A stretch of 64,000 nucleotides of DNA from Desulforamulus ruminis DSM 2154 (GTDB taxonomy: Bacteria > Bacillota > Desulfotomaculia > Desulfotomaculales > Desulfotomaculaceae), in assembly GCF_000215085.1 (NCBI RefSeq), contig NC_015589.1, positions 2,678,120 to 2,742,119 on the forward strand. The letters are read 5' to 3'. This document shows, piece by piece, positions 1 to 14,015 of the stretch. The notes beneath the pieces were generated by a model. The model was not told the origin of the DNA, did no database searches, and saw only the letters and a program-made list of their open reading frames with translations. How positions within the stretch are numbered: the stretch's first letter is position 1; every line of letters starts with the position of its first letter. The translations under genes were made by a program, and so were the position numbers.

Positions 1-70
1 TACTGCTGCAAAAAGAACCCTGAAGGGTTGCTAATGTGCAGTTCCTTATTTTCTAAAAAAATAACAGAAC

Positions 71-163
71 ACGGATTGTACGGATTTTTACCGATTCTCA
101 AGGATTGAATTATCTTTAAAATAAAATCCGCGCAAATCCGTACAATCCGTTAAATCCGCGTTC
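71..163. repeat. Intergenic inverted repeat built from CGGATT units
   Basis: Bases 71-100 carry repeated CGGATT-containing units (ACGGATTGTACGGATTT) and bases 125-163 carry the same units in reverse complement (AAATCCGTACAATCCG). The pair can fold into a long imperfect hairpin. A related single-orientation copy lies at 2462-2505, on the other side of the sensor and rarA genes. The rest of bases 1-209 shows no gene. The function is unknown; it looks like a dispersed non-coding repeat. Confidence 0.7.
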
Positions 164-209
164 CATTTCCTTTTGGTCGATGGTTCTTGGATACTCCCTT
201 TATCGCTCT

Positions 210-965
210 TTACTCTTCCGAGGATTTCTTCATCTTCTCAATGGCCTCCTGGTTGGAAGAAACCATCTTGGCAATATCCCTGGCGGATTGAGAGGACCTC
301 TCGGCCAATTTGCGAACCTCCTGGGCCACCACCGCAAAGGTGCGTCCGTGGTCCCCCGCCCTGGCAGCCTCAATGGAAGCATTCAAGGAAAGCATGTTGG
401 TCTGCTCGGCAATGTCATCAATAATTTCCGCCACGGAACCAATGTCCTGCTGGAAAGAAATAAGCTGCTGCAGTTGGTCCAGAATATAATTTTCAATGGC
501 TAACTGCATATCCAGATTGATTCTTTTCATAAAGGCTTCCAGGGCCTGCTTGTATGCCTCGGTTCCGGCTCCATGGTGCTCTGCCAAAATCCTCTGGATT
601 TCACTGTGATAAATCTGATAGGCTCCCATGTACCACTTGGGATACAGTCCGATTTGCTGATGTTTCTTGCCAATGGCCAGTCTTGTTTCTATATAGGCAT
701 GATCCAGGGGATCACACAGGGAAATAAAATATCTTTTCTGAACTCCCTTTAGTTTTTCAACGGTACTATGTTTTTCAATTAGTTCCTTTAAATAAGAAAA
801 GTTCAGCAAGTGCTGGTAGAAGCCCTCTACCACCCGCTCGGCCTCTTTTATAAACAGGTCCTTATGGGCTGCCATTAATTCCGTTTCCTGTTCGGTGATG
901 TCCAAGTAGGCCAGTTGAACCCGGCGCTTGGAAAAATCCTGTGCACTGGTCATAAAGTCGCTCAC
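210..965 (-). CDS. Short globin-coupled methyl-accepting chemotaxis-type sensor (HemAT-like)
   Basis: The protein has 251 residues and no membrane segment, so it should be a soluble sensor. Residues about 15-165 resemble a protoglobin domain: the segment [18 protein letters not shown] matches the region around the haem-ligating proximal histidine of HemAT. Residues about 170-251 hold only the tip of an MCP signalling coiled coil, with the conserved [19 protein letters not shown] and the following VRKLAERS segment. HemAT proteins are usually over 400 residues, so the signalling arm is much shortened and the adaptation regions are missing. The start is GTG at 965 behind GGGGAGGGA. By family knowledge it would sense O2 or another gas and signal through CheW/CheA. 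Output from so short a hairpin is uncertain. Confidence 0.85.
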
Positions 966-1030
966 CCTGATCCCTCCCCCAAAAAGTAACAGTTAATTAC
1001 ATAATTCTCCACCCTCAAGAGTAATCCTTG

Positions 1031-2329
1031 CTAGCTCTCTCTCTTGATCATTAATTTTTCTTTACCTTGGTCTGACGGCTCATAGTAAATCCTGCCCTTT
1101 AGGTTATCCGGGAGGTACTGCTGAGCCACCCAGTGCCCGGGGTAATCATGAGGATATTTATAGCCCCCATGGCCCAGTCCCTTGGCACCTCTATAATGGG
1201 TATCCCGAAGGTGCGGCGGAACCACACCGATGTTTTTTTCCTTAATATCTTTCATCGCCCGGTCAATGGCATTGATCACACTGTTGCTTTTAGGAGCGGC
1301 GGCCAAGTAAATGATACATTGGGCAATGGGAATCCGGGCCTCCGGCATGCCTATCGTTTCTAGGGCATTCCACGCCGCATGGGCCATCAACATGGCCTGA
1401 GGGTCGGCCAGTCCTACATCCTCAGAGGCGTGAACCATTAACCGGCGTACAATGAAACGCTGATCCTCTCCGGCTGCCGTCATCCGGGCATAATAATGCA
1501 GCGCGGCATCCGGGTCTGAACCCCGGATACTCTTGATAAAGGCGGAGATGACATCATAATAATGATCTCCTGTTTTATCATAGTGGATATACCTTTGCTG
1601 GGTCGAATCCTCGGCTACCTCCAGGGTAATATGCCGGTAGCCGTCTTCAGCGGGGGCTGTGGATAACACTGCCAACTCCAGGGCATTTAAAAGGTTCCGG
1701 GCATCACCACCGCACATTTTAATAAAATGCTGCCGGGCTGCCTCCTCCAATTGCACCCGATAGCCGCCCAATCCCCGTTCCTCGTCGGATAAAGCCTGCT
1801 GAATCAACGTGTTGAGGTCTTCTTCGGAGTGCTGCAAAAGTTGAAAGATGCGGGACCTGCTTAGGAGGGCGCCATTTAGTTCAAAGTAGGGATTTTGGGT
1901 GGTGGCTCCAACAAGCACCACTTCTCCTTTTTCCACCGCTTCCAGCAGGCAGTCCTGTTGGGTTCCTCTTTTTAAGGAGTGAATTTCATCAATAAAGAAA
2001 ATGGTTTTCTTGCCGTAAAATTTTAAATGATCCCGGGCTTTTTTTATTTCTTCCCGGATTTCTGAAACCCCCGCAGATACCGCGTTCATTTTAACAAAAT
2101 TGGCGGAGGTCATTTGCGATATAATACTGGCCAGAGTGGTCTTGCCGGTGCCCGGAGGACCATAGAAAATAATCGACCCCAGTTGGTCCGCTTCGATGGC
2201 TCTGCGAAGCAGCTTTCCCCTGCCGACAATGTGTTGCTGTCCGGTAAATTCATCCAAATTGCGAGGGCGGAGCCTTTCAGCCAGGGGAGCCGCCTGCAGG
2301 CTGCTCCTGGTCGAACTGAACAAATCCAT
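1031..2329 (-). CDS. rarA: Replication-associated recombination protein A (AAA+ ATPase)
   Basis: The protein has 432 residues, the normal length for the RarA/MgsA/WRNIP1 family. The Walker A motif GPPGTGKTT lies near residue 60 and Walker B FFIDEIHSL near residue 110. A sensor arginine region (LSRSRIFQL) and the C-terminal tetramerisation region with PKSNS follow. RarA acts at stalled replication forks with SSB and the clamp-loading machinery. The ATG at 2329 follows GAGGTGA. No other gene lies in the transcript. A LexA-like box and an extended -10 lie just upstream (2375-2401), which suggests DNA-damage control; this control is inferred from sequence only. Confidence 0.95.
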   Translation of the reverse strand: MDLFSSTRSSLQAAPLAERLRPRNLDEFTGQQHIVGRGKLLRRAIEADQLGSIIFYGPPGTGKTTLASIISQMTSANFVKMNAVSAGVSEIREEIKKARDHLKFYGKKTIFFIDEIHSLKRGTQQDCLLEAVEKGEVVLVGATTQNPYFELNGALLSRSRIFQLLQHSEEDLNTLIQQALSDEERGLGGYRVQLEEAARQHFIKMCGGDARNLLNALELAVLSTAPAEDGYRHITLEVAEDSTQQRYIHYDKTGDHYYDVISAFIKSIRGSDPDAALHYYARMTAAGEDQRFIVRRLMVHASEDVGLADPQAMLMAHAAWNALETIGMPEARIPIAQCIIYLAAAPKSNSVINAIDRAMKDIKEKNIGVVPPHLRDTHYRGAKGLGHGGYKYPHDYPGHWVAQQYLPDNLKGRIYYEPSDQGKEKLMIKRES

Positions 2330-2374
2330 ACAGTCACCTCGGTAAATAATTTTAATATAAAAGAGGATAAGTCT

Positions 2375-2383
2375 ATCATACCA
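2375..2383 (-). promoter_or_regulatory. Extended -10 promoter candidate for rarA
   Basis: On the minus strand the sequence reads TGGTATGAT, an extended -10 (TGnTATNAT), about 45 bases before the rarA start. No good -35 is seen, as expected for extended -10 promoters. Confidence 0.4.
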
Positions 2384-2387
2384 TGGG

Positions 2388-2401
2388 TGAACAAATGTTT
2401 G
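2388..2401. promoter_or_regulatory. LexA/DinR-like SOS box upstream of rarA
   Basis: TGAACAAATGTTTG matches the Gram-positive LexA (DinR) consensus CGAACRNRYGTTYG at every position except the first base. It sits immediately upstream of the extended -10 of rarA, where bound LexA would block RNA polymerase. Confidence 0.5.
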
Positions 2402-2461
2402 GGGAAAAATTTATCCACTTTAATTGATCTTAACATACTCCTAAAAAAGAAAAAAACCAAT

Positions 2462-2505
2462 AGAACGCGGATTGTACGGATTTCTGCGGATTTACACGGA
2501 TTTTT
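2462..2505. repeat. Third copy of the CGGATT-type intergenic repeat
   Basis: The stretch has CGGATTGTACGGATTT, then TGCGGATTT and ACACGGATTT, the same units as the inverted repeat at 71-163. It lies in the 312-base gap between rarA and the 238-residue membrane protein gene. That gap otherwise holds the rarA promoter region and the terminator at 2593-2618. Confidence 0.65.
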
Positions 2506-2592
2506 TATCTTTGTTTTAATATCTGTTCAAATGTGTATTAAATATTTCAGTTTGGCAGCATATATATTTACCTGTACTTTTCTTAACGAAAT

Positions 2593-2618
2593 AAAAAAAC
2601 ACCCTTTTTCAGGGTGTT
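2593..2618 (-). terminator. Rho-independent terminator of module copy 1
   Basis: The 8-bp stem AACACCCT/AGGGTGTT (2598-2605 and 2611-2618) has a 5-base loop and is followed on the minus strand by a T run. It lies about 24 bases after the stop of the gene ending at 2642. Confidence 0.85.
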
Positions 2619-2641
2619 CAGAATTGTTGACGTTGGGCTTA

Positions 2642-3358
2642 CTAGGCCTCGGATTTTTTTCCTCCCTTGGTCATGGTAATTCCCAACCCGCCGCAGATAT
2701 AGTAGATGGCAAAGCCATACCACAGAGTGTAGATCATGTAGAAGATTAGCATGAAGCTCATGATCCCTTTATTTTCACTAACAAACTTGGTTTCAACTCC
2801 GTAATAATTATAGGCCGGTTCAATCATCTTTTTCTGGTAGTTTTGAATATACACGGATTCAGTGAAGCTCTTTTGAACTTCTAAATCCTTAGCCACGGCC
2901 TTGGTAATGCTGTACCAGCGGTTGGTGGCATCCCGGGGATCGGTGTTGTATTTCTGCTGGACCACATCCCCTTTATTCTCAAACATGTTCATACAGTCTT
3001 CGGAAATATTGTTGAGCAGCTTACCCATATCCGCCTTTAAAGCAACGTTTGCTTTATCCACTTGAACATCTGCATCTTCAACTTTTTGCAGGGCATCAGC
3101 CCATCTTGCAGCCTGTTCTTCATCCTTGCACTTCAAATTAACAGCAATCTCAGTTCCTTCCCAGTTGGCTGCTTTTTTAACCTCACTGGTAACTACATCC
3201 TGCACGGAGCCTTTGGAGATGGAGTTAAACAAATCGTCGGCAAAGTCCAGGCCGTTTCTTCCGTTACCAAAGGAAGGGGTCATCATATAGAAATAGATGC
3301 CACAAAAGGAGATCAGCATAATCAGCCCGATGGTAAAGGCTTTACTATCTCTTATCAT
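2642..3358 (-). CDS. 238-residue membrane-anchored protein coupled to TSUP permease (copy 1)
   Basis: I do not recognise a named family. A hydrophobic segment near residues 8-27 and another near 200-226 flank a hydrophilic region of about 170 residues. Two membrane passes with the middle domain outside is the simplest topology. The region GNGRNGLDFADDLFNSISKG and the stretch RDATNRWYSITKA are nearly identical in the paralogue at 6720-7436; the middle is more diverged. The permease stop and this ATG overlap as TAATG, so translation is almost certainly coupled. Tight coupling suggests an accessory subunit or partner of the permease (inference). A terminator follows, closing the unit. Confidence 0.85.
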   Translation of the reverse strand: MIRDSKAFTIGLIMLISFCGIYFYMMTPSFGNGRNGLDFADDLFNSISKGSVQDVVTSEVKKAANWEGTEIAVNLKCKDEEQAARWADALQKVEDADVQVDKANVALKADMGKLLNNISEDCMNMFENKGDVVQQKYNTDPRDATNRWYSITKAVAKDLEVQKSFTESVYIQNYQKKMIEPAYNYYGVETKFVSENKGIMSFMLIFYMIYTLWYGFAIYYICGGLGITMTKGGKKSEA

Positions 3359-4638
3359 TAATGGCTCACTCCTTTCCCGTCCGTTACATCGGCTTTGGCG
3401 GTTTCGGCTCTCAGGGTGGGAATTCCCCGGATAAAGCTGAGGATAATCCAGCCGGCAAAGAGAATGACCAGGCCGAAGAAAATCCAGGCGCCAATATCAG
3501 CAAGGAGTTTTCCGGTTTCAGGAGTCAGCTTAATATAACCCATCTGACCCATCTTCTCAGGAAGAGCAAAGGCCCTGTTAACAAAACCCGCCAGGATGGC
3601 AATGGCGTAAAAAGCGCGAATATAGATACCGGGTACAACCTTGGTGGTGGCTGCGCCGATTTGAATGCCCAGCAGGGAGCCAACCAACATGCCCATAGCC
3701 AGGGTATAAAAGATGTAACCGTAAATAGCGTACTGTACGATAGAACTATAACCAGCGGTAAAAATAATTTGCAGGATATCCGTTCCCACGGTGGTGAAGG
3801 AGGATACGCCCAGACCGTAAACAAACATGGGGAAGGTCAGGAAGCCGCCGCCCACACCCATGATGGCTGCGGCAAAACCGACCACAGCACCGCAGATGGC
3901 TACAAACCAACCGGAAATCTGACGACCGCCCAGGTCTTCATCAAACTTCACCATGGGGGCAAGTTTAATTTTCTGCAACCGGAGGGCCAGTTTGGTCATG
4001 CCGATAGGACCGCCGTGGGCATCGCCCTTGGCTGCCTGCCCTCTGGTTTTAAGAAAATCATACATGGAGTAAAAACCCAGGAAACCAAGCATGACTACGT
4101 AAACGGCACTGATGACAAAATCACTGAACACGGGGTTCATATTAAACAGGGCCCGGTTCAGGGTACCGCCGGCGGTTACGCCGATACCGGAACCACAGAG
4201 AAAAGCGATGGCCAGAGGAATGTTAACGTTGCCCAGTTTCTTATGAATTACGGTTCCCATAATGGCCTTAGCAAAAATATGGAACTGGTCTGTACCTACG
4301 GCCAGGATCCCTTTTACGCCCAGGCTCATCAGGGCGGGAGTAATAACAAAGCCACCGCCGGCGCCGATGCAGCCGGTAATTAAGCCGGCACAAACACCCA
4401 CCGCCATGGACCCGTAGAACATAAAGGGAGTAAAGTGAGACGGTCCGAAAGCACTCTTACCGCCAAGAAATGCCGGCAGATCGGCGGCATGACCAATGGC
4501 GGGGATAATCAGGGGCAGCATCATAATCGCCAAAATCAGCAGATGTTTTCTGTTGCGGACGATATTATTGGACATTTCCAGTTCCCATTTGGCATGGGCC
4601 CTGGAGGCACTCATTAGAGCCTCATACAATCCCCTCAT
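3358..4638 (-). CDS. TauE/SafE (TSUP) family membrane permease (copy 1)
   Basis: The protein has 426 residues, long for a family often 250-300. Two glycine-rich pore motifs are visible: TGCIGAGGGFVITPAL in the first half and AAIMGVGGGFLTFPMF in the second, the internal duplication typical of TSUP proteins. An N-terminal extension of about 30 residues precedes a hydrophobic segment ending in IGHAADLP, which could be a signal peptide or an extra helix. The family moves sulfite, sulfonates, sulfoacetate or related anions; the substrate here cannot be read from sequence. The ATG at 4638 follows AAGGAGG. It is the second gene of the three-gene unit and overlaps the next gene by one base. The paralogue at 7436-8728 is very close along its whole length. 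Confidence 0.93.
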   Translation of the reverse strand: MRGLYEALMSASRAHAKWELEMSNNIVRNRKHLLILAIMMLPLIIPAIGHAADLPAFLGGKSAFGPSHFTPFMFYGSMAVGVCAGLITGCIGAGGGFVITPALMSLGVKGILAVGTDQFHIFAKAIMGTVIHKKLGNVNIPLAIAFLCGSGIGVTAGGTLNRALFNMNPVFSDFVISAVYVVMLGFLGFYSMYDFLKTRGQAAKGDAHGGPIGMTKLALRLQKIKLAPMVKFDEDLGGRQISGWFVAICGAVVGFAAAIMGVGGGFLTFPMFVYGLGVSSFTTVGTDILQIIFTAGYSSIVQYAIYGYIFYTLAMGMLVGSLLGIQIGAATTKVVPGIYIRAFYAIAILAGFVNRAFALPEKMGQMGYIKLTPETGKLLADIGAWIFFGLVILFAGWIILSFIRGIPTLRAETAKADVTDGKGVSH

Positions 4639-4773
4639 TTAGGTAACCTCCTTAAACTCGGTTATTTTGTACTAAAAAATGTGCTTGCGTTATTCATAAC
4701 CATTGCAAAATCCCAGAATAGTGCTTTTTCCTGTTGTTCAAGGTGCTTATTTCTTAAAATAGGTATTAGTCAG

Positions 4774-6192
4774 TTATGGCCTTACTGAGCTTTCCGGAGC
4801 CTCACCTCCTTTCACTGGGCCCCTTGATAGTTGATATTTAATCATCTCAAGTTGTATATGACCTGAGATAATCTCTGGAGAATAGTGATAATCCACATAC
4901 AGATTCATGGGAGGAACCTTTAGTTGGTCTCGGATGGTTTTTAAACAGTCTGTTTTGATATGAACCGTTGTAATGGCAGGAAGGATGGTATTTTTTAAAT
5001 CCTGCTTTTGAATGGCCCAGGTGCTGGTAACGATGGACCGGCACTTTTCTTTTACTTTATCCTCATGAATCTGATAGCCAAATTTCTGTGTGGCTTCGCT
5101 AAAATTGTAGCTTACCAGTTCCTGGCATTCATTGGCTTTAATGACCGCTTCCGCTTTTTTCCGGACCGCGCTTTCTTTGTTTAACTTTCCTAACAATATG
5201 TCTGCTTTAAGGGTCTCCAGCCCTGCGGAAACCCGGGCCAGATTAGCCTCTATTTCTTTTATCCGGACCTTGCTTTTTTGTTCATAACAATTCACTTTAA
5301 AGCAAATCTGATGTTCCAAGTCCACACTTCCGCTGTCCAGAGCGGTGATCTTTTCTTTCGGAATTTCACCGGCAGGTCTGGCGATCACATACCGATCACT
5401 TTTACCGCTGATGCGGTCCTCCCCATCCAAAACAACAACCGTACCATCGAATGAATTAATCAATCGGTTGACCAGTATTTGCAATTGTTCCTCCTGGTAA
5501 TGCTCAGCCGAATCGGCAACCTCAAATTCAATCAGGCTGCCATTCCCCTGGCAGGCAAGAAGCAGGTTGATTTGCTTGTGATAACTTTGAGGAATATAGA
5601 TGTTACTGGCAACATCCACATCAAAGGTGGTTCCTTCAAATACTCCCGGCAACAGGTGAATGAAAATCAAATTGTGATTTTTTTCCCTATCTTGTATGCT
5701 GGAAAGCCTGGTTTTTATTAAAGCCTGCCTTATCTTTTCTTCTCCCAATCTTTTTACCAGGTTATAAAATTGTAAGCTTGTGCCTTCCACCAGACCTAAT
5801 TCCCCACAGACCTCATGCACCGGACGATTCAATTCCCCAGCCAGCATCCCTTTAATAATGAGAGCCTCCGCTAGCTTATACTGGTTTTCATTCAAAACTT
5901 CTATTAAAGCCTCTTTCACCCGGGAACGCTCCAACTCAATTTTTACTTCCGCCACCCAGGATTCAGAGAACGGTAATTCTTTGACCTTATTCTCCGGCGT
6001 TTCTAATTCGTTGTGTAGTTTTTTGAGGCTTGAGATCAGGTAATTAATCCTGGCAGGAGAAAGATTTTCAATACTCCCGAAGTTTGCCACCACTCGCTGT
6101 TTAACCTTGCCATCCAAACGGTAATTTTCAATAAGCTTAATGTAGACGTATTCTTTACCATTTTTTTTGGTGGTAATTTTCCTGAAAAACAA
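4774..6192 (-). CDS. Degenerate IS1634-like transposase-derived protein (copy 1), probably exapted
   Basis: The protein has 472 residues. The N-terminus (MFFRKITTKKNGKEYVYIKL, then ENYRLDGKVKQRVVANFGSI) is the typical opening of IS1634/IS4-type transposases. The C-terminus IRDQLKVPPMNLYVDYHYSP followed by SGHIQLEMIK matches the region that in active enzymes reads like ErxFRxLKSxLxxRPxYHxxxxRIxGH. The catalytic Glu of that segment is not present by eye. The core keeps only weak echoes of the other acidic residues (GTTFDVD near 190, VVVLDGEDR near 255). The start is TTG at 6192 behind GAGGTGATGGGG; the paralogue at 8895-10274 also starts with TTG. I see no terminal inverted repeats. It lies upstream of the permease pair in both units, with its own promoter (6302-6330). 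A DNA-binding or regulatory role is inference. Confidence 0.75.
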   Translation of the reverse strand: MFFRKITTKKNGKEYVYIKLIENYRLDGKVKQRVVANFGSIENLSPARINYLISSLKKLHNELETPENKVKELPFSESWVAEVKIELERSRVKEALIEVLNENQYKLAEALIIKGMLAGELNRPVHEVCGELGLVEGTSLQFYNLVKRLGEEKIRQALIKTRLSSIQDREKNHNLIFIHLLPGVFEGTTFDVDVASNIYIPQSYHKQINLLLACQGNGSLIEFEVADSAEHYQEEQLQILVNRLINSFDGTVVVLDGEDRISGKSDRYVIARPAGEIPKEKITALDSGSVDLEHQICFKVNCYEQKSKVRIKEIEANLARVSAGLETLKADILLGKLNKESAVRKKAEAVIKANECQELVSYNFSEATQKFGYQIHEDKVKEKCRSIVTSTWAIQKQDLKNTILPAITTVHIKTDCLKTIRDQLKVPPMNLYVDYHYSPEIISGHIQLEMIKYQLSRGPVKGGEAPESSVRP

Positions 6193-6301
6193 ACCCCATC
6201 ACCTCTTCTCATTTAAAAGCATATTTCATATCCTAAAAAAAATATTTTAACTAAGCTCAAACGATTTTTAAAAAGGTTTTTTGTCTTTCTATTTTGGGGT
6301 A

Positions 6302-6330
6302 ATGATATAAAATGGTATTTTTGAATGCAA
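6302..6330 (-). promoter_or_regulatory. Sigma-A-type promoter of module copy 1
   Basis: On the minus strand, TTGCAT (6325-6330), 17 bases, then TATCAT (6302-6307). The same arrangement with 17-base spacing and a similar spacer is found in front of copy 2 (10446-10474). Confidence 0.7.
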
Positions 6331-6619
6331 GCACTTTTTCGCACAAAACAAAAACTTTTTTAGCCAATTATTTTATTTGTCATGAATAAATAGCCTTTAA
6401 TCATGATTATAATTGATGTGACAGAATAATATCGTCATTAAGTTTCTTCTGTTGCTTACCAGTTTTTGCTCCACTTCCGAATTAAATTTAGCACTTCTAA
6501 AGGCTAAAATACTTTTTTTGTGCTTTTTTCAAAAAATGTATTGACAAAAATTGTTCTGTTGATCTTTTTATTTAACCCATTCTGCCGTCCATTTATAGAT
6601 AACAATGAAATGAACGCAG

Positions 6620-6649
6620 AAAAGACACAGGATAAAACCTGTGTCTTTT
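6620..6649 (-). terminator. Terminator-like hairpin after module copy 2
   Basis: A 12-bp stem AAAAGACACAGG/CCTGTGTCTTTT (6620-6631 and 6638-6649) lies about 70 bases past the stop of the gene ending at 6720. The T run is short, so it may be bidirectional. Confidence 0.6.
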
Positions 6650-6719
6650 CTGACAGGGAAATGAGAAACTTCCCTACCGTGTTCCGCCTTGGGCGGGTAT
6701 TATTTTTTATAAACACCTT

Positions 6720-7436
6720 TTATGCTTCTGCTTTTTTCCCGGACTTACTCATGGTGATACCCAGACCCTGGCACAGGTAATAAATGGCGAAACCATACCA
6801 CAGGGTGTAAACCATATAAAACACCATCATAAAGGTCATCAGAGGTGCATGCTCGGAAACATGCAGGATCTCCACACCGTAATAGTTATAGGCGGGTTCG
6901 ATAACCTTCTGTTGATAACTTTGAAGTGCCAGAGATTCTTTAAAGCTCTCCTGTGCGTCAAGACTTTTGGTCATGGCCTTGGTAATATTGTACCAGCGGT
7001 TGGTTGCATCCCTGGGATCGGTATTGTATTTCTGTTGTATTACATCGCCATTATTTTCAAACATGGCCTGGCAGTCTGCGGAAATACTCGCAAATACCTT
7101 ACCCAGATCCCCTTTAAAGGAGACTACTTCCTTGTTCACACTGACCTCGGCACCTTCAACTTTTTGCAGAACTTGGGACCACCGCTCGGCCTGGCTTTCA
7201 TCCTTGCCTTTCAGCTCCACAGCAATCTCAGTACCGTCAAACTTCGCTGTTTTCTCCAGCTCGGCACCAATGACATTTTCCACGGATCCTTTTGAGATAG
7301 AATTAAACAAATCGTCGGCAAACTCCAATCCATTCCTGCCATTTCCAAAGGAGGGACTCATCATATACAGGTAAATGCCCAGGAAGGACACCATCATGAC
7401 CACGCCAATGATAAAGGCTTTACTGTCTCTAATCAT
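6720..7436 (-). CDS. 238-residue membrane-anchored protein coupled to TSUP permease (copy 2)
   Basis: It has the same length and layout as the protein at 2642-3358: an N-terminal membrane anchor, a hydrophilic domain, and a C-terminal hydrophobic segment (FMMVFYMVYTLWYGFAIYYL). The ends are nearly identical to the paralogue and the middle domain is clearly diverged, as expected if the domain binds a ligand that differs between units. It overlaps the permease stop as TAATG. The family is unrecognised. A partner role with the permease is inferred from coupling and co-duplication. Confidence 0.85.
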   Translation of the reverse strand: MIRDSKAFIIGVVMMVSFLGIYLYMMSPSFGNGRNGLEFADDLFNSISKGSVENVIGAELEKTAKFDGTEIAVELKGKDESQAERWSQVLQKVEGAEVSVNKEVVSFKGDLGKVFASISADCQAMFENNGDVIQQKYNTDPRDATNRWYNITKAMTKSLDAQESFKESLALQSYQQKVIEPAYNYYGVEILHVSEHAPLMTFMMVFYMVYTLWYGFAIYYLCQGLGITMSKSGKKAEA

Positions 7437-8728
7437 TAATGGCTCACTCCTTTCCCGCCGGCGGTTACAGCACCTTTGTCAGACTCAGCCCTCAAGATGG
7501 GAATCCCTTTGATAAAGCTAATAATAATCCAGCCGGCAAAGACAATGACCAGACCAAAGAAAATCCAGGCACCAATATCCGCAAGCAGTTTACCGGTGGA
7601 AGCCTCCATGGAAATATAGCCCATCTGAGCCATTTTTTCCGGCAGGGCAAACAAGCGGTTAACAAAACCGGCCAGAATGGCAATGGCGTAGAACGCCCGG
7701 ATATACATACCGGAAACTACTTTGGTGGTGGCTGCGCCGATCTGAATCCCCAGCAAGGAACCCACCAGCATGCCCATAGCCAGAGTATAGAAGATATAAC
7801 CATAAATCGCATATTGGGCAATGGAGCTATAACCAGCGGTAAAAATAATCTGCAGAATATCGGTTCCTACGGTGGTGAAGGAAGAAACACCCAGACCATA
7901 AACAAACATGGGGAAGGTCAGGAAGCCGCCGCCCACTCCCATGATAGCTGCGGCAAAGCCCACTACAGCACCGCAAGCGGCTACAAACCAGCCGGAAATC
8001 TTGCGGCCGCCGGGAGTAATGTCTTCGTCAAAGGTCACCATGGGTGCAAGATTAATTTTTTGCAGTTTAACCGCCAGCGGGGTTAAACCCGCAGGACCGC
8101 CGTGGACGTCTTGGCTCTGGTTCTTGTCGCCCCTGGATTTAAGAAAGTCATACATGGAATAAAAGCCCAGGAAGCCCAGCATGACGACATAAACAGAACT
8201 AATCATAAAATCACTCATTACCGGGTTAGCGTTAAACAGAGCCCGGTTCAAGGTTCCGCCTGCGGTTACCCCGATACCGGAACCTACCAGGAAGGCAATG
8301 GCCAAAGCCACATTCACGTTCCCTAATTTTTTATGAATAACCGTACCCATAATGGCCTTGGCAAAAATATGGAACTGGTCAGTACCTACGGCCAGAATCC
8401 CTTTAACACCTAAGCTCATTAATGCAGGGGTGATTACAAAGCCACCGCCGGCACCGATACAGCCGGTAATCAATCCGGCACAAACACCCACTGCCATGGA
8501 GCCGTAAAACATAACCGGATTATAGTGGGAAGGTCCATAGGCGCTTTTCCCTCCGATAAATGCGGGAAGGTCCGCCGCGTGGCCAATGGCAGGAATAATC
8601 AAGGGAAGCATCATAACAGCTAAAATAAGCAAATGCTTTCTGTTGCGGACAATGTTGTTGGACATTTCCAGTTCCCATTTAGCATGGGCTCTGGATGCAG
8701 ACATCAGGGCATTAAATATTCCCCTCAT
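7436..8728 (-). CDS. TauE/SafE (TSUP) family membrane permease (copy 2)
   Basis: The protein has 430 residues and is nearly collinear with the permease at 3358-4638. It has the same glycine-rich repeats (TGCIGAGGGFVITPAL and AAIMGVGGGFLTFPMF) and the same N-terminal extension before a signal-like hydrophobic segment. The main differences fall in the cytosolic loop around residues 195-225 and at the C-terminus. The ATG at 8728 follows AAAGGAGG. It lies downstream of the transposase-like gene and is translationally coupled to the 238-residue protein. The substrate is probably a sulfur oxyanion or organosulfur anion by family knowledge, but this is not shown. Confidence 0.93.
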   Translation of the reverse strand: MRGIFNALMSASRAHAKWELEMSNNIVRNRKHLLILAVMMLPLIIPAIGHAADLPAFIGGKSAYGPSHYNPVMFYGSMAVGVCAGLITGCIGAGGGFVITPALMSLGVKGILAVGTDQFHIFAKAIMGTVIHKKLGNVNVALAIAFLVGSGIGVTAGGTLNRALFNANPVMSDFMISSVYVVMLGFLGFYSMYDFLKSRGDKNQSQDVHGGPAGLTPLAVKLQKINLAPMVTFDEDITPGGRKISGWFVAACGAVVGFAAAIMGVGGGFLTFPMFVYGLGVSSFTTVGTDILQIIFTAGYSSIAQYAIYGYIFYTLAMGMLVGSLLGIQIGAATTKVVSGMYIRAFYAIAILAGFVNRLFALPEKMAQMGYISMEASTGKLLADIGAWIFFGLVIVFAGWIIISFIKGIPILRAESDKGAVTAGGKGVSH

Positions 8729-8894
8729 GCAGGCAACCTCCTTTAGCGTTCATACAAAGTACTTTCTAACTCTTATCCGGATTGTAGTGACAAATATTTA
8801 GTACTTTCTGGCAAGCAGTTCTTGAATAAAGCCCTATAAAGTGCTACAATTTAAAATGAATAGCAAAATTAACAGTTGAAAATTTATTTGCGCC

Positions 8895-10274
8895 TTAGGC
8901 TTCACCCCCTTGCCGTGATTCATTCAGAGTCCTGGTTATTTTTTGTTTAATAATCTCGAGTTGAATGTGACCCGAGATAATTTCCGGGGAATAGTGGTAA
9001 TCTACATACATGTTAATGGGCGGCATTTTTAATTGATCGGTTATTACTCTAAAAGTGCTTGTTTTCACAGGAATACTGTCGAATACAGGCACAAAAGCGG
9101 CTGTGGGTTCAACAACCCAGGTCTGAGTAATAATGGATTGATTTTTTTGTTTAACCGCTTCTTCATTAATTTGATACTCAAAGGTTTGAGTTAATTCATT
9201 AAAGCTAAAGGATACCATATCCTGGCAATTATTGGTTTTGATCACGGATTCGGCTTTGCGCCTGACAACCGCCTCTTTATTTACATTCCCCAGCAAAATA
9301 TCTGCTTTAATGGTTTCCAACCCCGCACAGGCCTTGGCCAAATTGGCTTTAACCTCTTTCATTTGAGTTGGACTTTTTTGTTCATAAGAAACCGTAGTAA
9401 AGAATTGCTTTCCCTGGAGAACTTCGTGGTTCTGGTTGTTGTTAATGTCTTCCGGAACTTCTCTAGCCACCAGATAATTGGCAGCCCCGGTGCTTAAAAG
9501 GTTTTCACCGTCCAGAACAAGCATGGGATGGTCCGTTTTACAGGCTAATCGATCAATTAGTTGATGTAAACGATCTTGTATTTCTTTTTTTTCCTCGGCG
9601 TATTCAAAATCCATAACGAAGCCTTGAATGTCACAGGCTAACAAAAGAATAAAGGGTTTTTGATAATTCTGAGGGTAAAAAAGGCTCCCCGGAAGATCCA
9701 TTTCAAAAGAAGTGCCCTCAAATATCCCAGTGGTTAAACTGACAAATCTTGGTTTGTGAATAATTTCATTACTTCCGGCGTAAAGCAGACCCCCGGTATT
9801 TAGGACAGCCCTGGTCCTTTCCTCCCCCAACTGCTTCATAATCTGATAGAATTGCAAACTGGTGGCGTTGATGAATCCCAATTCTTTGCAGGACTCCTGA
9901 ATAGGGCTGTTTACTTCTCCGGCCAGCAATGACTTCAGCAGCATGGCTTCAGCCACCTCATAGGTTTGACCTTCTCCCAGCACCTGGACCAAGCCGCCTT
10001 TTATGCCTGTACTGGAAAGAATATTTCGTACTTCGGAAATCCGGCTATCCCCCAAGGACATTGCAGATTCCTTATCCTGTATATCCAGCTCGTTGTGCAG
10101 TTTTCTCAGGCTGGCAATCAAATAGTTAATTCTTTCGGGAGAAAGATTATCAATGCTGCCAAAGTTCGCAATGACACGTTGTTTTACCTTACCTTCCATA
10201 CGGTAATTTTCAATAAGTTTTACATAAACATACTCTTTGCCGTTTTTTTTGGTGGTAATTTTACGGAAAAACAA
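8895..10274 (-). CDS. Degenerate IS1634-like transposase-derived protein (copy 2), probably exapted
   Basis: The protein has 459 residues. Its first 64 residues differ from the copy 1 protein at only about nine conservative positions, and its C-terminal block PPINMYVDYHYSPEIISG plus HIQLEIIK differs at three positions. The central 250 residues are strongly diverged. Active IS copies in one genome normally stay near-identical throughout, so this pattern points to an old duplication with constraint on the ends. The conserved catalytic Glu of IS1634 enzymes is not visible here either. The start is TTG at 10274 after GGGGGGAAG. No terminal inverted repeats are seen. It has its own promoter (10446-10474). 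Confidence 0.75.
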   Translation of the reverse strand: MFFRKITTKKNGKEYVYVKLIENYRMEGKVKQRVIANFGSIDNLSPERINYLIASLRKLHNELDIQDKESAMSLGDSRISEVRNILSSTGIKGGLVQVLGEGQTYEVAEAMLLKSLLAGEVNSPIQESCKELGFINATSLQFYQIMKQLGEERTRAVLNTGGLLYAGSNEIIHKPRFVSLTTGIFEGTSFEMDLPGSLFYPQNYQKPFILLLACDIQGFVMDFEYAEEKKEIQDRLHQLIDRLACKTDHPMLVLDGENLLSTGAANYLVAREVPEDINNNQNHEVLQGKQFFTTVSYEQKSPTQMKEVKANLAKACAGLETIKADILLGNVNKEAVVRRKAESVIKTNNCQDMVSFSFNELTQTFEYQINEEAVKQKNQSIITQTWVVEPTAAFVPVFDSIPVKTSTFRVITDQLKMPPINMYVDYHYSPEIISGHIQLEIIKQKITRTLNESRQGGEA

Positions 10275-10445
10275 GGTCTTCCCCCCTTTATCCCGTTTAA
10301 AAAATTTGTAATTTCATAAAAAGTTCGTAATCCAATTGACATTAAGTTTTATCAAAAACTACTTAGTTTTTTAAAAAAATTTAAAAAGATAATCTTATGC
10401 TTTTGTTATGAAAAAATTCTTCTTTGTGGTCTATTATTTGGGGTT

Positions 10446-10474
10446 ATGCTATCAAAAGGTTTTTTTGATTTCAA
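10446..10474 (-). promoter_or_regulatory. Sigma-A-type promoter of module copy 2
   Basis: On the minus strand, TTGAAA (10469-10474), 17 bases, TAGCAT (10446-10451). Spacer composition and flanking bases resemble the copy 1 promoter. Confidence 0.65.
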
Positions 10475-10562
10475 GTTTTATTTTGCACAAATTCAATTTT
10501 TCTTTTGCTATTTTTCGATGTTTTCATCACACTATATCCAATATAACCACATTATCGTCTGT

Positions 10563-10583
10563 ATGACAAAAATCATTTGTCAT
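10563..10583. promoter_or_regulatory. Candidate regulator site, 8-bp dyad
   Basis: ATGACAAA, 5 bases, TTTGTCAT: a perfect dyad about 90 bases upstream of the -35 of module copy 2. This position fits an activator site. Related TTTGTCATGA and TGTGACAG words occur in the copy 1 region near 6377 and 6417. Confidence 0.4.
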
Positions 10584-10750
10584 TACCCGGATTTGTACGA
10601 CAATTTTAGAATTTTTGTTTTATCTTACTCCTGTTTTTTGGAAGTCAAAGTTAAATTTACCAATTATAAAATTTTAAAAAATATTTTTTAAAAAACTATT
10701 GACAAAATTATTTATTTAAGCTTGTACTTCAAAAGCCCCTCTCCGATGAC

Positions 10751-10791
10751 AAAGAATGAACCCGCCATGGTTGCCGGCGGGTTCATTCTTT
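10751..10791 (-). terminator. Strong hairpin after the VWA gene
   Basis: A perfect 16-bp stem (10751-10766 with 10776-10791) and a 9-base loop lie directly after the stop at 10800. There is no long T run, so it may act in both directions. Confidence 0.75.
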
Positions 10792-10799
10792 GTTGTAAC

Positions 10800-12596
10800 C
10801 TATTCTTCTTCAACAAGTTTTTTGAGCAATCTGCCAAATTCAATAACCACCGTATTATAATCACTCCAGGGGATGCTGTGTTCATACCCATAGTCCCCCG
10901 GTCGATCTCCCACAGAAATATGAATGGTTTTACATCCCAGGTTCTTCAGGCGGCGCACCTGTTCTTTAACCAGCTTGGTTTCAGGTCCCGGATTGGGGTT
11001 TCCATCGGTGATAACAATTAAAACCTTCTGCACCCACCTTCTGCCCTCGGACATTAACCGGAGAGCGCAATATTTTACCGCACTGCCCTCCGGGGTGGTT
11101 CCTTCCGCTCCGGACATGCCCAGGCGTGCCTTCTGGGTAAGGGAGGGGGAATACAGTTCCTGCATATTTACCGCCACTTTGAGGTTAAATCCAAAGACCC
11201 AGGTCTGCACCGAATCCACCGGTTCCATGGCTTCCACGAACAAGGCGGCCAGATTTCTAGCCAGTTCGATTCTGGATATTCCTTCGGCGGCCGGGTAAAC
11301 CATGGAGGCGCTGGTATCGATCAATAAAGCCATATCTAAATTGCGGGTTCGCGTTTCAATCACTTCCGAACGTTGGAAAAGCTTATTGGAGTAAGCCGCC
11401 TGATAAAGGGCGTCCTCGTCCAGTTCCCCGCTGGGCAGGTGGTATTGGTGAATGACCTGACGGGTATTGGCCCAAGACAATCGGTTTCTTAACCGGATAA
11501 TAAAGGGCTTCACGGTGGTTCTGGCCTTTTCGTAGCGTTCTGCGGCCCCTTCATCCATCACTGGCCTCCGAAACACCACCATGGGAGGCGGTGGCGGGGG
11601 ATAATCGGGATCCAGACCTGCTTCCATAATTTCCGCCATATTGGCCACCTGAAGCTGTTCCTGGCGCATATTTTGGATCAAGTTTTGCAAATCACTGGGA
11701 ATGTTGGTTCTATCTTTGGCACCGGCACTTCCTGTTTCTGCCTGGTAGTCGCCCCGATTCTGGTAATCCAGCAGTGAGCTGGGGAGAGAATAAGCAATAT
11801 CATGCTGGATCATGTTCCCGAACAGTTCATTATAGGCCCTTTTGGCTAGGTTGCGGGTGCTTAATCTTTTTAAACGATCCGGATTGTCGATTAAAACCGC
11901 CTTTTTTACCAGGTCTACCACCTGTTGAACCCTGGCCACCGAGGGTTTATAGTCCCGGGTGGATCTCAGAGCCAGCAAAAATTCGGTGGCACGCAGATTT
12001 AACTCGTTCTCCATTAAATTCTTACGGGGTTTGTGGGCCCATTTCTCCAGATCAAGATCAAATTCGTACCGGCGGTACTTCCAGAAATATCCCCTGTAGC
12101 CGGGATAATAAAGAGAGGTTAAATGCTCCACAAAAACCTCCTCTACCACCTTGCGTATGACGGCCATGAAAGGATTTCCCGGCATTTCGGTATAGAATTC
12201 CGGACTGCTGAACTGGGCATGGGCCGCTTGGTGCAGAGCCATGCCGGTTAAAACATCCACAATATCCGGCAATAAATAACAAGGAGGCGGGTCCATCAGG
12301 GGTTCGGCGCTGAGAGCGATTTGCTTTCTGGCAAAATCCGTCCGGGTCTCTTTGGAAGAGAAATGAACGGTAAATTTATTCCGGCCGTGAACGATATCCA
12401 CCACCCTGGAAACCGCTCCCAGAATAGCGGTCATGACCATAGCCTGGGCATCCATATCCTCCGAGGCCAACAGCCGGTGACTGAAAAGAGCGCAATTCCC
12501 GTGATTCGCCCCGTCGCCTTCCAATCCCCGGCCGGAGAGCCAAAAATCCGAAAGACTTTTTGTTTTCCAGCCTTCTGTTGGATTCACTGCAGTCAA
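10800..12596 (-). CDS. VWA-domain protein, partner of MoxR-type ATPase
   Basis: The protein has about 598 residues. The C-terminal third is a von Willebrand A domain with an intact metal site: LLIDTSASM, a threonine in GAEGTTPEGSAVKY, and VLIVITDGNPNPG. The N-terminal part is largely helical and includes an HQAAHAQFSSPEFY segment; the overall plan resembles CobT/NorD-like VWA partners of MoxR ATPases. The ATG at 12611 lies inside the sequence GGAGGTGA, which looks like the ribosome binding site. I therefore take TTG at 12596 as the more likely start. The gene follows the MoxR gene by about 65 bases. Such pairs act as chaperones for metal insertion or complex assembly; the target here is unknown. 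Confidence 0.85.
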   Translation of the reverse strand: MTAVNPTEGWKTKSLSDFWLSGRGLEGDGANHGNCALFSHRLLASEDMDAQAMVMTAILGAVSRVVDIVHGRNKFTVHFSSKETRTDFARKQIALSAEPLMDPPPCYLLPDIVDVLTGMALHQAAHAQFSSPEFYTEMPGNPFMAVIRKVVEEVFVEHLTSLYYPGYRGYFWKYRRYEFDLDLEKWAHKPRKNLMENELNLRATEFLLALRSTRDYKPSVARVQQVVDLVKKAVLIDNPDRLKRLSTRNLAKRAYNELFGNMIQHDIAYSLPSSLLDYQNRGDYQAETGSAGAKDRTNIPSDLQNLIQNMRQEQLQVANMAEIMEAGLDPDYPPPPPPMVVFRRPVMDEGAAERYEKARTTVKPFIIRLRNRLSWANTRQVIHQYHLPSGELDEDALYQAAYSNKLFQRSEVIETRTRNLDMALLIDTSASMVYPAAEGISRIELARNLAALFVEAMEPVDSVQTWVFGFNLKVAVNMQELYSPSLTQKARLGMSGAEGTTPEGSAVKYCALRLMSEGRRWVQKVLIVITDGNPNPGPETKLVKEQVRRLKNLGCKTIHISVGDRPGDYGYEHSIPWSDYNTVVIEFGRLLKKLVEEE

Positions 12597-12663
12597 CAAA
12601 CTCACCTCCATTCAAATAAGCTTTTTTAACCTTTTCGGGGATATTCTATTCTTAGACTTCCCT

Positions 12664-13500
12664 TTATTTACCGGAGGGCAGGTAAGCCTGAATTACCTGG
12701 AGCACGGTGGTTTGTTCGCTGTCCACGCCTCCCTCCGGGGAGAAACGGTTGACGAAGGTATATTTTAAGGCTGTTTTTAAAGGCTGCCCCCGCCTTAATA
12801 AAGCGCAGGCGGAAATGGCCGGCCGGAAACCGGTGGGCCGGCTCAAGCTCTCCTCATGGAATAGGGCATTTAATTTATGAGTGATTCTGGCTAACAGCAG
12901 AGCCTGATCTCCGTCCGCTTGGTAAACCTTCTCCAGCAGTCCGGCCATGACCTCCACCGGAGGCAGTTCCAACCGGATGGATTCAAAACGGTCATCCACT
13001 GCGGTATCTTCCATAAAGGTTCCGGTATGGCTGCGCCCCCGGTTCTCGGTAGAGATGAAAATGCACCGGGGATGAACGGCAATATGTTGTTTGGTTTCTT
13101 CAATATAGACTTCCCGGTTATGATCCAAAATGGTGTAGATGGAATTATGGATGTCCGGGGTTACCCGGTTGAATTCATCCAGTGCCACCAGCCCCGGTCT
13201 TTGAATGGCGGCAACGAGTTCCGACTGGATAAAAACCGTCTGTCCGGCAATGAACTCCCAGTGGCCGAACCAATCCCGGGGTGTCCGGATAGCCCCTACA
13301 TTGACCCGGTGAAAAGGCAGTCCGTGAGCCTGGGCCAGCCTCTTGGTCAGCTCTGTCTTGCCGGTTCCGGGATCTCCCGTCAGCATGACATTGATCCCGG
13401 AAAACATAAGATCCTGAATTACAGACAATTTTTCCGGATCCACCCAGAAATCCGGAAGGTGGTCTACGTTAACACCCCAGTCTTTATCCTTTATTCCCAT
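12664..13500 (-). CDS. MoxR-family AAA+ ATPase
   Basis: The protein has 278 residues. Walker A is GDPGTGKTE near residue 41 and Walker B is LVALDEFNR near 98; a sensor 1 region FISTENRGR and a sensor 2 region RPTGFRPAIS follow. The ATG at 13500 has AGGAGG upstream. It heads a two-gene operon with the VWA protein. MoxR/VWA pairs usually remodel or activate a metalloenzyme or surface complex, but no such target lies beside it. Confidence 0.9.
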   Translation of the reverse strand: MGIKDKDWGVNVDHLPDFWVDPEKLSVIQDLMFSGINVMLTGDPGTGKTELTKRLAQAHGLPFHRVNVGAIRTPRDWFGHWEFIAGQTVFIQSELVAAIQRPGLVALDEFNRVTPDIHNSIYTILDHNREVYIEETKQHIAVHPRCIFISTENRGRSHTGTFMEDTAVDDRFESIRLELPPVEVMAGLLEKVYQADGDQALLLARITHKLNALFHEESLSRPTGFRPAISACALLRRGQPLKTALKYTFVNRFSPEGGVDSEQTTVLQVIQAYLPSGK

Positions 13501-13654
13501 GGCATAGCCTCCTGCTTTATGATTTAAAAGCTTTTATTCTCCCTGTTTCCTAACATAACCTGCCTCGTAAGAAAAATGCAATAAACCCTTATTTAAAAAC
13601 AATGATGCTTTGTAAAAAGGATAATTTCATAGGTTTGGCGAATTTGGAAAAGAT

Positions 13655-13954
13655 ATGATTACTTTGGGGGTCCGGCCCTTGATTACCCAGGATATCGACC
13701 AACGCTACATTTACTGGTGGCACAGGAATCAGTGGTGCATTGCCAAGGTTCAGGTAAGTCCTTCTTCGGATAAAATCTTCCTGTACATCTGGCGCCTGGA
13801 CGGCTTCTACCTGGGCATGACGGCAGGAAAAAGCAGGGAAAGCATTGAGCAATCCCAGGGCTATAACTTATGGCTGCGCGAAGGACGTCCTGATTTAAAG
13901 GTTCGCCTGGAAGATCAGATAAAAAACAAGTACCGGCAGATTGAATTTTTTTAA
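13655..13954 (+). CDS. Small hypothetical protein, 99 residues
   Basis: Unrecognised. It is rich in aromatic residues (YIYWWHRNQWC) with a basic C-terminus (LEDQIKNKYRQIEFF). The frame is open upstream only to a stop at about 13619, and no other start codon is available. The ribosome binding site (GGAAAAG) is weak. It lies 61 bases before the next small gene on the same strand. An overlapping minus-strand frame at 13589-13852 is less protein-like. Confidence 0.55.
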   Translation: MITLGVRPLITQDIDQRYIYWWHRNQWCIAKVQVSPSSDKIFLYIWRLDGFYLGMTAGKSRESIEQSQGYNLWLREGRPDLKVRLEDQIKNKYRQIEFF

Positions 13955-14015
13955 GCAGGGAATAATGGGCACAGGGTGAATTTGGATAAAGCTTATTTTT
14001 TAGGAGGAATTCAAA

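Follow-up and report, generated by a model that had tools for sequence, protein, structure and literature searches.

TldR proteins are nuclease-dead TnpB homologues that act as RNA-guided transcription factors in bacteria. They have been described (PMC13418256), as have transposase-derived transcription factors in animals (PMC10027918), and proteins of mobile elements are thus already known as regulators. How prokaryotes recruit mobile elements was reviewed in 2022 (PMC8987985), with accounts of HTH and antitoxin proteins co-opted as regulators; the term DDE is absent from that review, and no example of a bacterial DDE transposase turned transcription factor was found in the open-licence literature. 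Sulfate uptake by sulfate reducers and its control are largely unknown, yet uptake affects sulfate reduction rates. In its passages on the 'CysZ family', the study by Marietou et al. 2018 (PMC5840216) presents a conserved TSUP clade as a possible sulfate transporter where other candidates are absent. Here we describe a locus, of which the open-licence literature yielded no published account, in which a dead DDE transposase (TnpL) has probably been exapted to regulate, in a sequence-specific manner, both its own gene and those encoding a TSUP permease and a membrane protein, P238.

The window, which is the whole 64,000-nucleotide stretch that was analysed, belongs to a complete chromosome of 3,969,014 bases. 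Its module has the gene order TnpL, TSUP, P238, present twice, head to tail, on the minus strand (Table 1). The original prediction of two same-strand units of about 4 kb was confirmed: the open reading frames lie where it had placed them, and the units, each ~4.1 kb long, are joined by direct repeats with a spacing of 4078-4090. The gene overlaps that it described are also real, amounting to one base at both TSUP/P238 junctions. The two units share ~51% identity in TnpL, ~87% in TSUP and 68% in P238, and the source genome has no TnpL copies other than these two. The nearest named relatives of this genome are Desulforamulus aeronauticus, D. putei and D. aquiferis. The genus members examined have the same order VWA, TnpL, TSUP, P238 and carry either one unit or two. 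A search for RNA families (Rfam) found none in positions 1-14000 of the window.

Table 1 Features of the module and its flanks, in window positions
Feature	Positions	Strand	Description
VWA gene	10800-12611		module flank
MgsA/RarA gene	1031-2329		module flank
TnpL-A	8895-10274	-	459 aa, TTG start; IS1634-derived, catalytically dead by sequence, candidate DNA-binding regulator
TSUP-A	7436-8728	-	TauE/SafE (PF01925) permease, 430 aa; E 1.7e-35
P238-A	6720-7436	-	membrane protein, 238 aa; 5' end overlaps TSUP-A 3' end by 1 base
TnpL-B	4774-6192	-	second dead transposase-like copy, 472 aa
TSUP-B	3358-4638	-	TauE/SafE permease, 426 aa; E 5.2e-35
P238-B	2642-3358	-	membrane protein, 238 aa; 5' end overlaps TSUP-B 3' end by 1 base
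Perfect palindrome TGACAA-N7-TTGTCA	10564-10582		upstream of TnpL-A; occurs as an exact match just once in the 3.97-Mb genome; conserved 5' of TnpL across the family
Motif TTTTGTCANTAC, 1 mismatch	10696-10707	-	upstream of TnpL-A
Motif TTTTGTCANTAC, 1 mismatch	10575-10586	+	overlaps the palindrome upstream of TnpL-A
Motif TTTTGTCANTAC, 1 mismatch	8784-8795	-	TnpL-A/TSUP-A spacer, before TSUP-A
Exact motif TTTTGTCAATAC	6538-6549	-	upstream of TnpL-B
Degenerate palindrome, TGACAA half only	6364-6382	-	upstream of TnpL-B

To judge from its sequence, TnpL is an exapted DDE transposase of the IS1634 family that has lost its catalytic residues. The family resemblance is faint in the window copies: the IS1634 model NF033559 (NCBIfam) matches TnpL-A with an E of 0.011 over residues 30-152 only and does not match TnpL-B, and neither copy scores above the Pfam cut-off. 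A search across the class recovered, from other families, relatives 483-559 aa long, and those near 550 aa match nearly the whole 483-position IS1634 model, mostly with E values of 1e-71 to 1e-80; for full-length relatives in the order the values are 1e-70 to 1e-80. Through these intermediates the assignment of the window copies is secure, and the earlier label 'IS1634-like' proved right. In a tree with flagged long branches and an unsure deep order, 11 genuine IS1634 transposases form one group (100/100), with TnpL outside it and forming two clades, one of long and one of mid/short forms. The genuine IS1634 copies of the class retain DTTSTYFEG, GDRGM and LWRVERAFRExK (D...GDRG...E). In TnpL, the first catalytic Asp is found in 0 of the 53 full-length members aligned, and the catalytic Glu is missing from 27/27 long forms and from nearly all mid and short forms. 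Around TnpL there are no terminal inverted repeats, its flanks scoring at the level of shuffled sequence; many IS control flanks score above this level, with sequence common to the copies. Scattered relatives bounded by such repeats, which would have counted against the original prediction, were thus not what we found: TnpL has no repeats, is usually single and is syntenic. The pairs tested gave dN/dS values of 0.07-0.31, indicating purifying selection, and the dN of the N-terminal 60 residues is up to ~10-fold below that of the whole protein. TnpL-A is predicted to keep a Tn5/IS4-like, RNase-H-like transposase fold: with its AF2 model (pLDDT 77), Tn5 transposase fills the top five rows in VIA-align (Z 9.9, rmsd 5.6, 258 aligned), followed by piggyBac (Z 8.1). 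Foldseek alone returned no match below E 0.001, the best (5.6e-3) being a transposase, and a PDB sequence search with TnpL gave nothing significant.

By score, the TnpL clade is confined to the class Desulfotomaculia, where about 53 of 113 genomes have it, usually as a single copy. Clade members in the class reach 470-654 bits, versus at most 204 bits for the other hits in 398 genomes of the phylum, and a search of plasmids gave no match. Of the 41 assessable genomes (those holding both TnpL and P238), about 33, from 8 families, have TnpL and TSUP-P238 within ~13 kb of each other; in some genomes tens of kb separate TnpL from P238, or the two are on different contigs. The predicted recurrence of the transposase-like gene beside TSUP genes therefore holds in 8 families of the class and never outside it. 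In about 20 genomes TnpL lies 7-25 kb from aprA, often near apr-qmo, and genes for HdrA-like, HdrC, HdrB, DASS, CitMHS and CBS-domain proteins stand between or beside the two. The TnpL/TSUP/P238 group is situated away from aprA in the window's family and in one other, f9. Overall, aprA is present in 48/53 TnpL genomes versus 28/60 others. Four well-assembled genomes have kept TnpL without aprA or P238, suggesting a role, present or past, besides the TSUP-P238 operon.

Both TSUP proteins match PF01925 (122 and 123 bits, cut-off 32.6), and P238 belongs to no Pfam or NCBIfam family. In the structural model of P238 (pLDDT 91.6), helices 5-26 and 197-224 flank a mixed domain, which the flanking charges would place outside the cytoplasm; the outer sensor or gate originally envisaged fits this modelled topology. 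No known fold was assigned to P238, since the fold search returned no row with Z of at least 8 and no Foldseek E below 0.001, and a PDB sequence search with it gave nothing significant. P238 patterns match 262 stretches, 201 of which encode relatives, and the 79 loci retained come from Bacillota, Nitrospirota, Desulfobacterota and a few sulfur-oxidiser-related genomes, most of the occurrences being in sulfate reducers. A TSUP gene adjoins P238 in 67/69 scored loci. The pair is also linked to aprA/qmo loci, and it would most likely carry sulfate or another sulfur oxyanion for dissimilatory sulfate reduction. TSUP-P238 is common outside the class (Desulfosporosinus, Nitrospirota, Desulfobacterota), TnpL never accompanies it there among the P238 loci examined, and some extra pairs in the genus have no local TnpL. 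A general tie of the permease pair to TnpL is therefore not supported, on grounds that the original prediction had itself named; the transport pair is the older, and TnpL joined it in this class alone. At P238 loci outside the class, histidine kinase relatives lie at most 4 genes away in 35/69 cases and response-regulator relatives in 34/69, and neither is found near P238 at the TnpL loci (0/12), although this contrast is confounded by lineage and no more than hints that one regulator replaced another.

The duplication is an old tandem event retained through speciation and does not itself testify to mobility. In the concatenated TSUP and P238 tree of the window's family, the downstream units of six species form one group (97), separate from the upstream units, indicating that the duplication is older than most of the genus. 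The TnpL copies show the same split in several species; the two in the window pair weakly with each other (91/87), and gene conversion is therefore possible. One genome keeps a single unit, another has a third complete unit at a different location, and in two the second TnpL gene is gone. In these last two genomes, motif sites persist before the TSUP gene of the TnpL-less unit, which is what action of TnpL in trans would predict.

The motif in question, TTTTGTCANTAC, forms blocks common to the TnpL-TSUP spacers of the window's family, and when up to one mismatch is allowed, just four sites occur in the 64 kb of the window, all of them intergenic and within the module. Across 956 kb of loci the palindrome TGACAA-N7-TTGTCA occurs 17 times, 15 of them at the module, and 7 of the 9 exact copies in the whole genomes of seven species of the family are at TnpL. 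We defined the motif in the window's family and tested it afterwards in the others, f9 having been glimpsed beforehand. Within 350 bp upstream and allowing at most one mismatch, families other than the window's have sites before TnpL (17/39, leaving 22/39 TnpL promoters without one), TSUP (8/18), CBS (8/31) and CitMHS (6/14) genes, versus 22/384 other genes. TTTTGTCANTAC precedes TnpL and TSUP in distant families, and the exact copies in two complete genomes of f9 are confined to the promoters of these two genes (2/2 and 2/2). TSUP promoters have the motif at 14/32 loci of TnpL genomes, at 1/7 in class genomes without TnpL and at 0/56 outside the class. The test without f9 (13/34 versus 22/384, p 2.9e-7) and that of TSUP promoters in TnpL genomes versus elsewhere (14/32 versus 1/63, p 2.7e-7, Fisher) yield indicative p-values, because the loci are partly related and a few genomes are present twice, and the Fisher p overstates independence.

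Several other explanations of these sites were rejected. They are not leftover IS ends, since 0/20 true IS flanks carry the motif, and a -35 box is unlikely because the orientation flips between families. The palindrome does not mark a genome-wide regulon, sites with at most one mismatch being no commoner than those of a reversed control in most genomes, nor does it extend to sat-apr in the window's family, where the best palindrome scores are at most 16.2 versus at least 21.5 at TnpL. We do not propose control of the module by Rex, because TTGTG-N8-CACAA has no above-chance frequency in the window; this Rex-like palindrome is present in the flanks of two loci of one genus.

In view of the locus-specific cis-motif, TnpL is best read as a regulator that binds DNA and acts on the unit. 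In the mechanism that we propose, an IS1634-family transposase would have lost its catalytic residues early in the sulfate-reducing Desulfotomaculia and then been retained as a regulator. TnpL, probably dimeric, would bind DNA through its strongly conserved N-terminal domain, at sites built on GTANTGACAAAA (TTTTGTCANTAC) and, in the window's family, also at the palindrome. These putative target sites precede its own gene and the TSUP-P238 operon; other families have them, in addition, before two more genes of the same locus, one for a CBS-domain protein and one for an ion transporter. TnpL would thereby autoregulate and set the supply of the TSUP-P238 transporter. We infer that TnpL itself is the binder, and infer likewise the sign of control (repression or activation), the signal and the transported ion. 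The chances are about even that the dead transposase is, class-wide, an autoregulating transcription factor dedicated to a regulon for sulfate uptake (TnpL, TSUP-P238, CBS protein and ion transporter), in a place maybe held by a two-component system beside the same transporter in other sulfate reducers.

The motif could instead belong to an unrelated factor of the same distribution. TnpL might have been exapted otherwise, in DNA organisation or protection, RNA binding or action on mobile elements, while an unlinked regulator reads the motif and controls the whole sulfate-transport locus, TnpL included. A function other than transcriptional control would suit the genomes that keep TnpL without aprA and P238, and the sites before CBS and CitMHS genes indicate that the motif marks a regulon reaching beyond TnpL's unit. 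We nevertheless regard this alternative as rather unlikely, since TSUP promoters nearly always lack the motif when the genome lacks TnpL (the 1/63 above) and, in the families annotated, no other DNA-binding gene is common to the neighbourhoods.

A looser association is harder to uphold. If TnpL were an ancestral hitch-hiker in an old sulfate island, functionally unconnected to TSUP-P238, its position near apr-qmo as well as TSUP-P238 in several families, and its separation from P238 by distance or contig in some genomes, would be readily understood. Against this, the genes stay together away from aprA in the window's family and f9, the three were duplicated as a unit and recur as a third unit elsewhere in one genome, and TnpL and TSUP share cis-motifs, which leaves the idea improbable. 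Another idea is that ordinary IS1634 insertions, or what remains of them, lie next to a transport operon and were by chance duplicated along with it. Genuine IS1634 elements are indeed abundant in the class, with as many as a dozen or more in one genome, and the longer TnpL forms are labelled IS1634 transposases by NCBIfam. The missing catalytic residues and inverted repeats, the purifying selection and the separation from true IS refute this explanation, as does a usually single-copy gene with synteny conserved in 8 families, and we give it hardly any credence. TnpL, having lost its cutting residues and been retained beside transporter genes that share a DNA motif with it, thus looks like a transposase turned gene-control protein. 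The original idea of a former transposase in control of the permease operon gains from the exaptation, the dead site, the linkage, the lack of inverted repeats and the purifying selection, but does not stand as a general rule.

From this locus come P238, a family of transporter partners with about 200 relatives that neither Pfam nor NCBIfam models, and a candidate regulator whose 12-bp site can be tested. If our reading is true, it would be a bacterial case of the route from cut-and-paste (DDE) transposase to transcription factor that is documented in animals. The 'CysZ family' TSUPs of sulfate reducers, as presented in the passages cited above (PMC5840216), and the module TSUP belong to the same protein family, a likeness at the family level; the term transposase is absent from that paper, and no P238-like partner was seen in those passages. 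With the IS1634-family IS (NF033559, IS4/Tn5-type DDE), TnpL is homologous over its whole length, comprising the N-terminal segment and the remnant of an RNase-H-like core with a Tn5-like predicted fold, but it differs in lacking the first Asp (all members), the Glu (nearly all) and inverted repeats, and in being syntenic, under purifying selection and not multi-copy. Like the candidate regulator TnpL, the animal transposase-derived factors are DNA transposon proteins turned DNA-binding regulators, although theirs is a eukaryotic setting. TldR resembles TnpL in being a transposon-encoded nuclease without catalysis that is linked to a host gene, which TldR regulates and TnpL may regulate; TldR is derived from TnpB and guided by RNA, whereas TnpL is derived from a DDE transposase, with no guide RNA found or proposed.

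The 12-bp cis-motif upstream of TnpL (the catalytically dead IS1634-derived transposase-like protein) and of TSUP (the TauE/SafE permease) is also present, in neighbourhoods L032-L082, at two other kinds of gene close to qmo-hdr: those for CBS-domain proteins and one for a CitMHS/ArsB-like transporter. Because these genes carry the TnpL/TSUP motif, the sequences suggest that all four kinds of gene form a small sulfate-locus regulon. In one genus (L034, L037), TnpL is flanked by TTGTGCAATATTACACAA-type palindromes, which are Rex operator-like.

The VWA gene has a conserved position beside the module in the genus. In Desulforamulus aquiferis (L073), frameshifts appear to disrupt the TnpL, TSUP and VWA genes, reflecting either decay or assembly error. 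Another genome, which has the short TnpL type, encodes a 72-a.a. fragment (L074:8491-8709) resembling the N-terminus of the long type, possibly a relic of an older TnpL copy.

At the start of the window, the protoglobin-chemotaxis fusion is apparently without membrane segments, and its product is apparently a soluble oxygen-sensor-like protein, predicted here in an anaerobe.

Features of the window near the module
Feature	Position	Remark
52-nt repeat, two copies, 81% identical	55-106 and 2451-2502	either side of block 107-2450
Protoglobin fused to methyl-accepting chemotaxis signalling domain	210-965	
VWA protein and MoxR-like AAA ATPase pair	10800-13500	upstream of module

Outside the Desulfotomaculia, TSUP-P238, the probable sulfate transporter pair, commonly has two signalling genes as neighbours, one for a large histidine kinase and one for a CheY-like response regulator of small size, and the Desulfosporosinus pairs adjoin UspA-like genes (P238 loci L113-L191). 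Pair and neighbours together look like an undescribed locus for transport and signalling, shared by sulfate reducers and a number of sulfur oxidisers.
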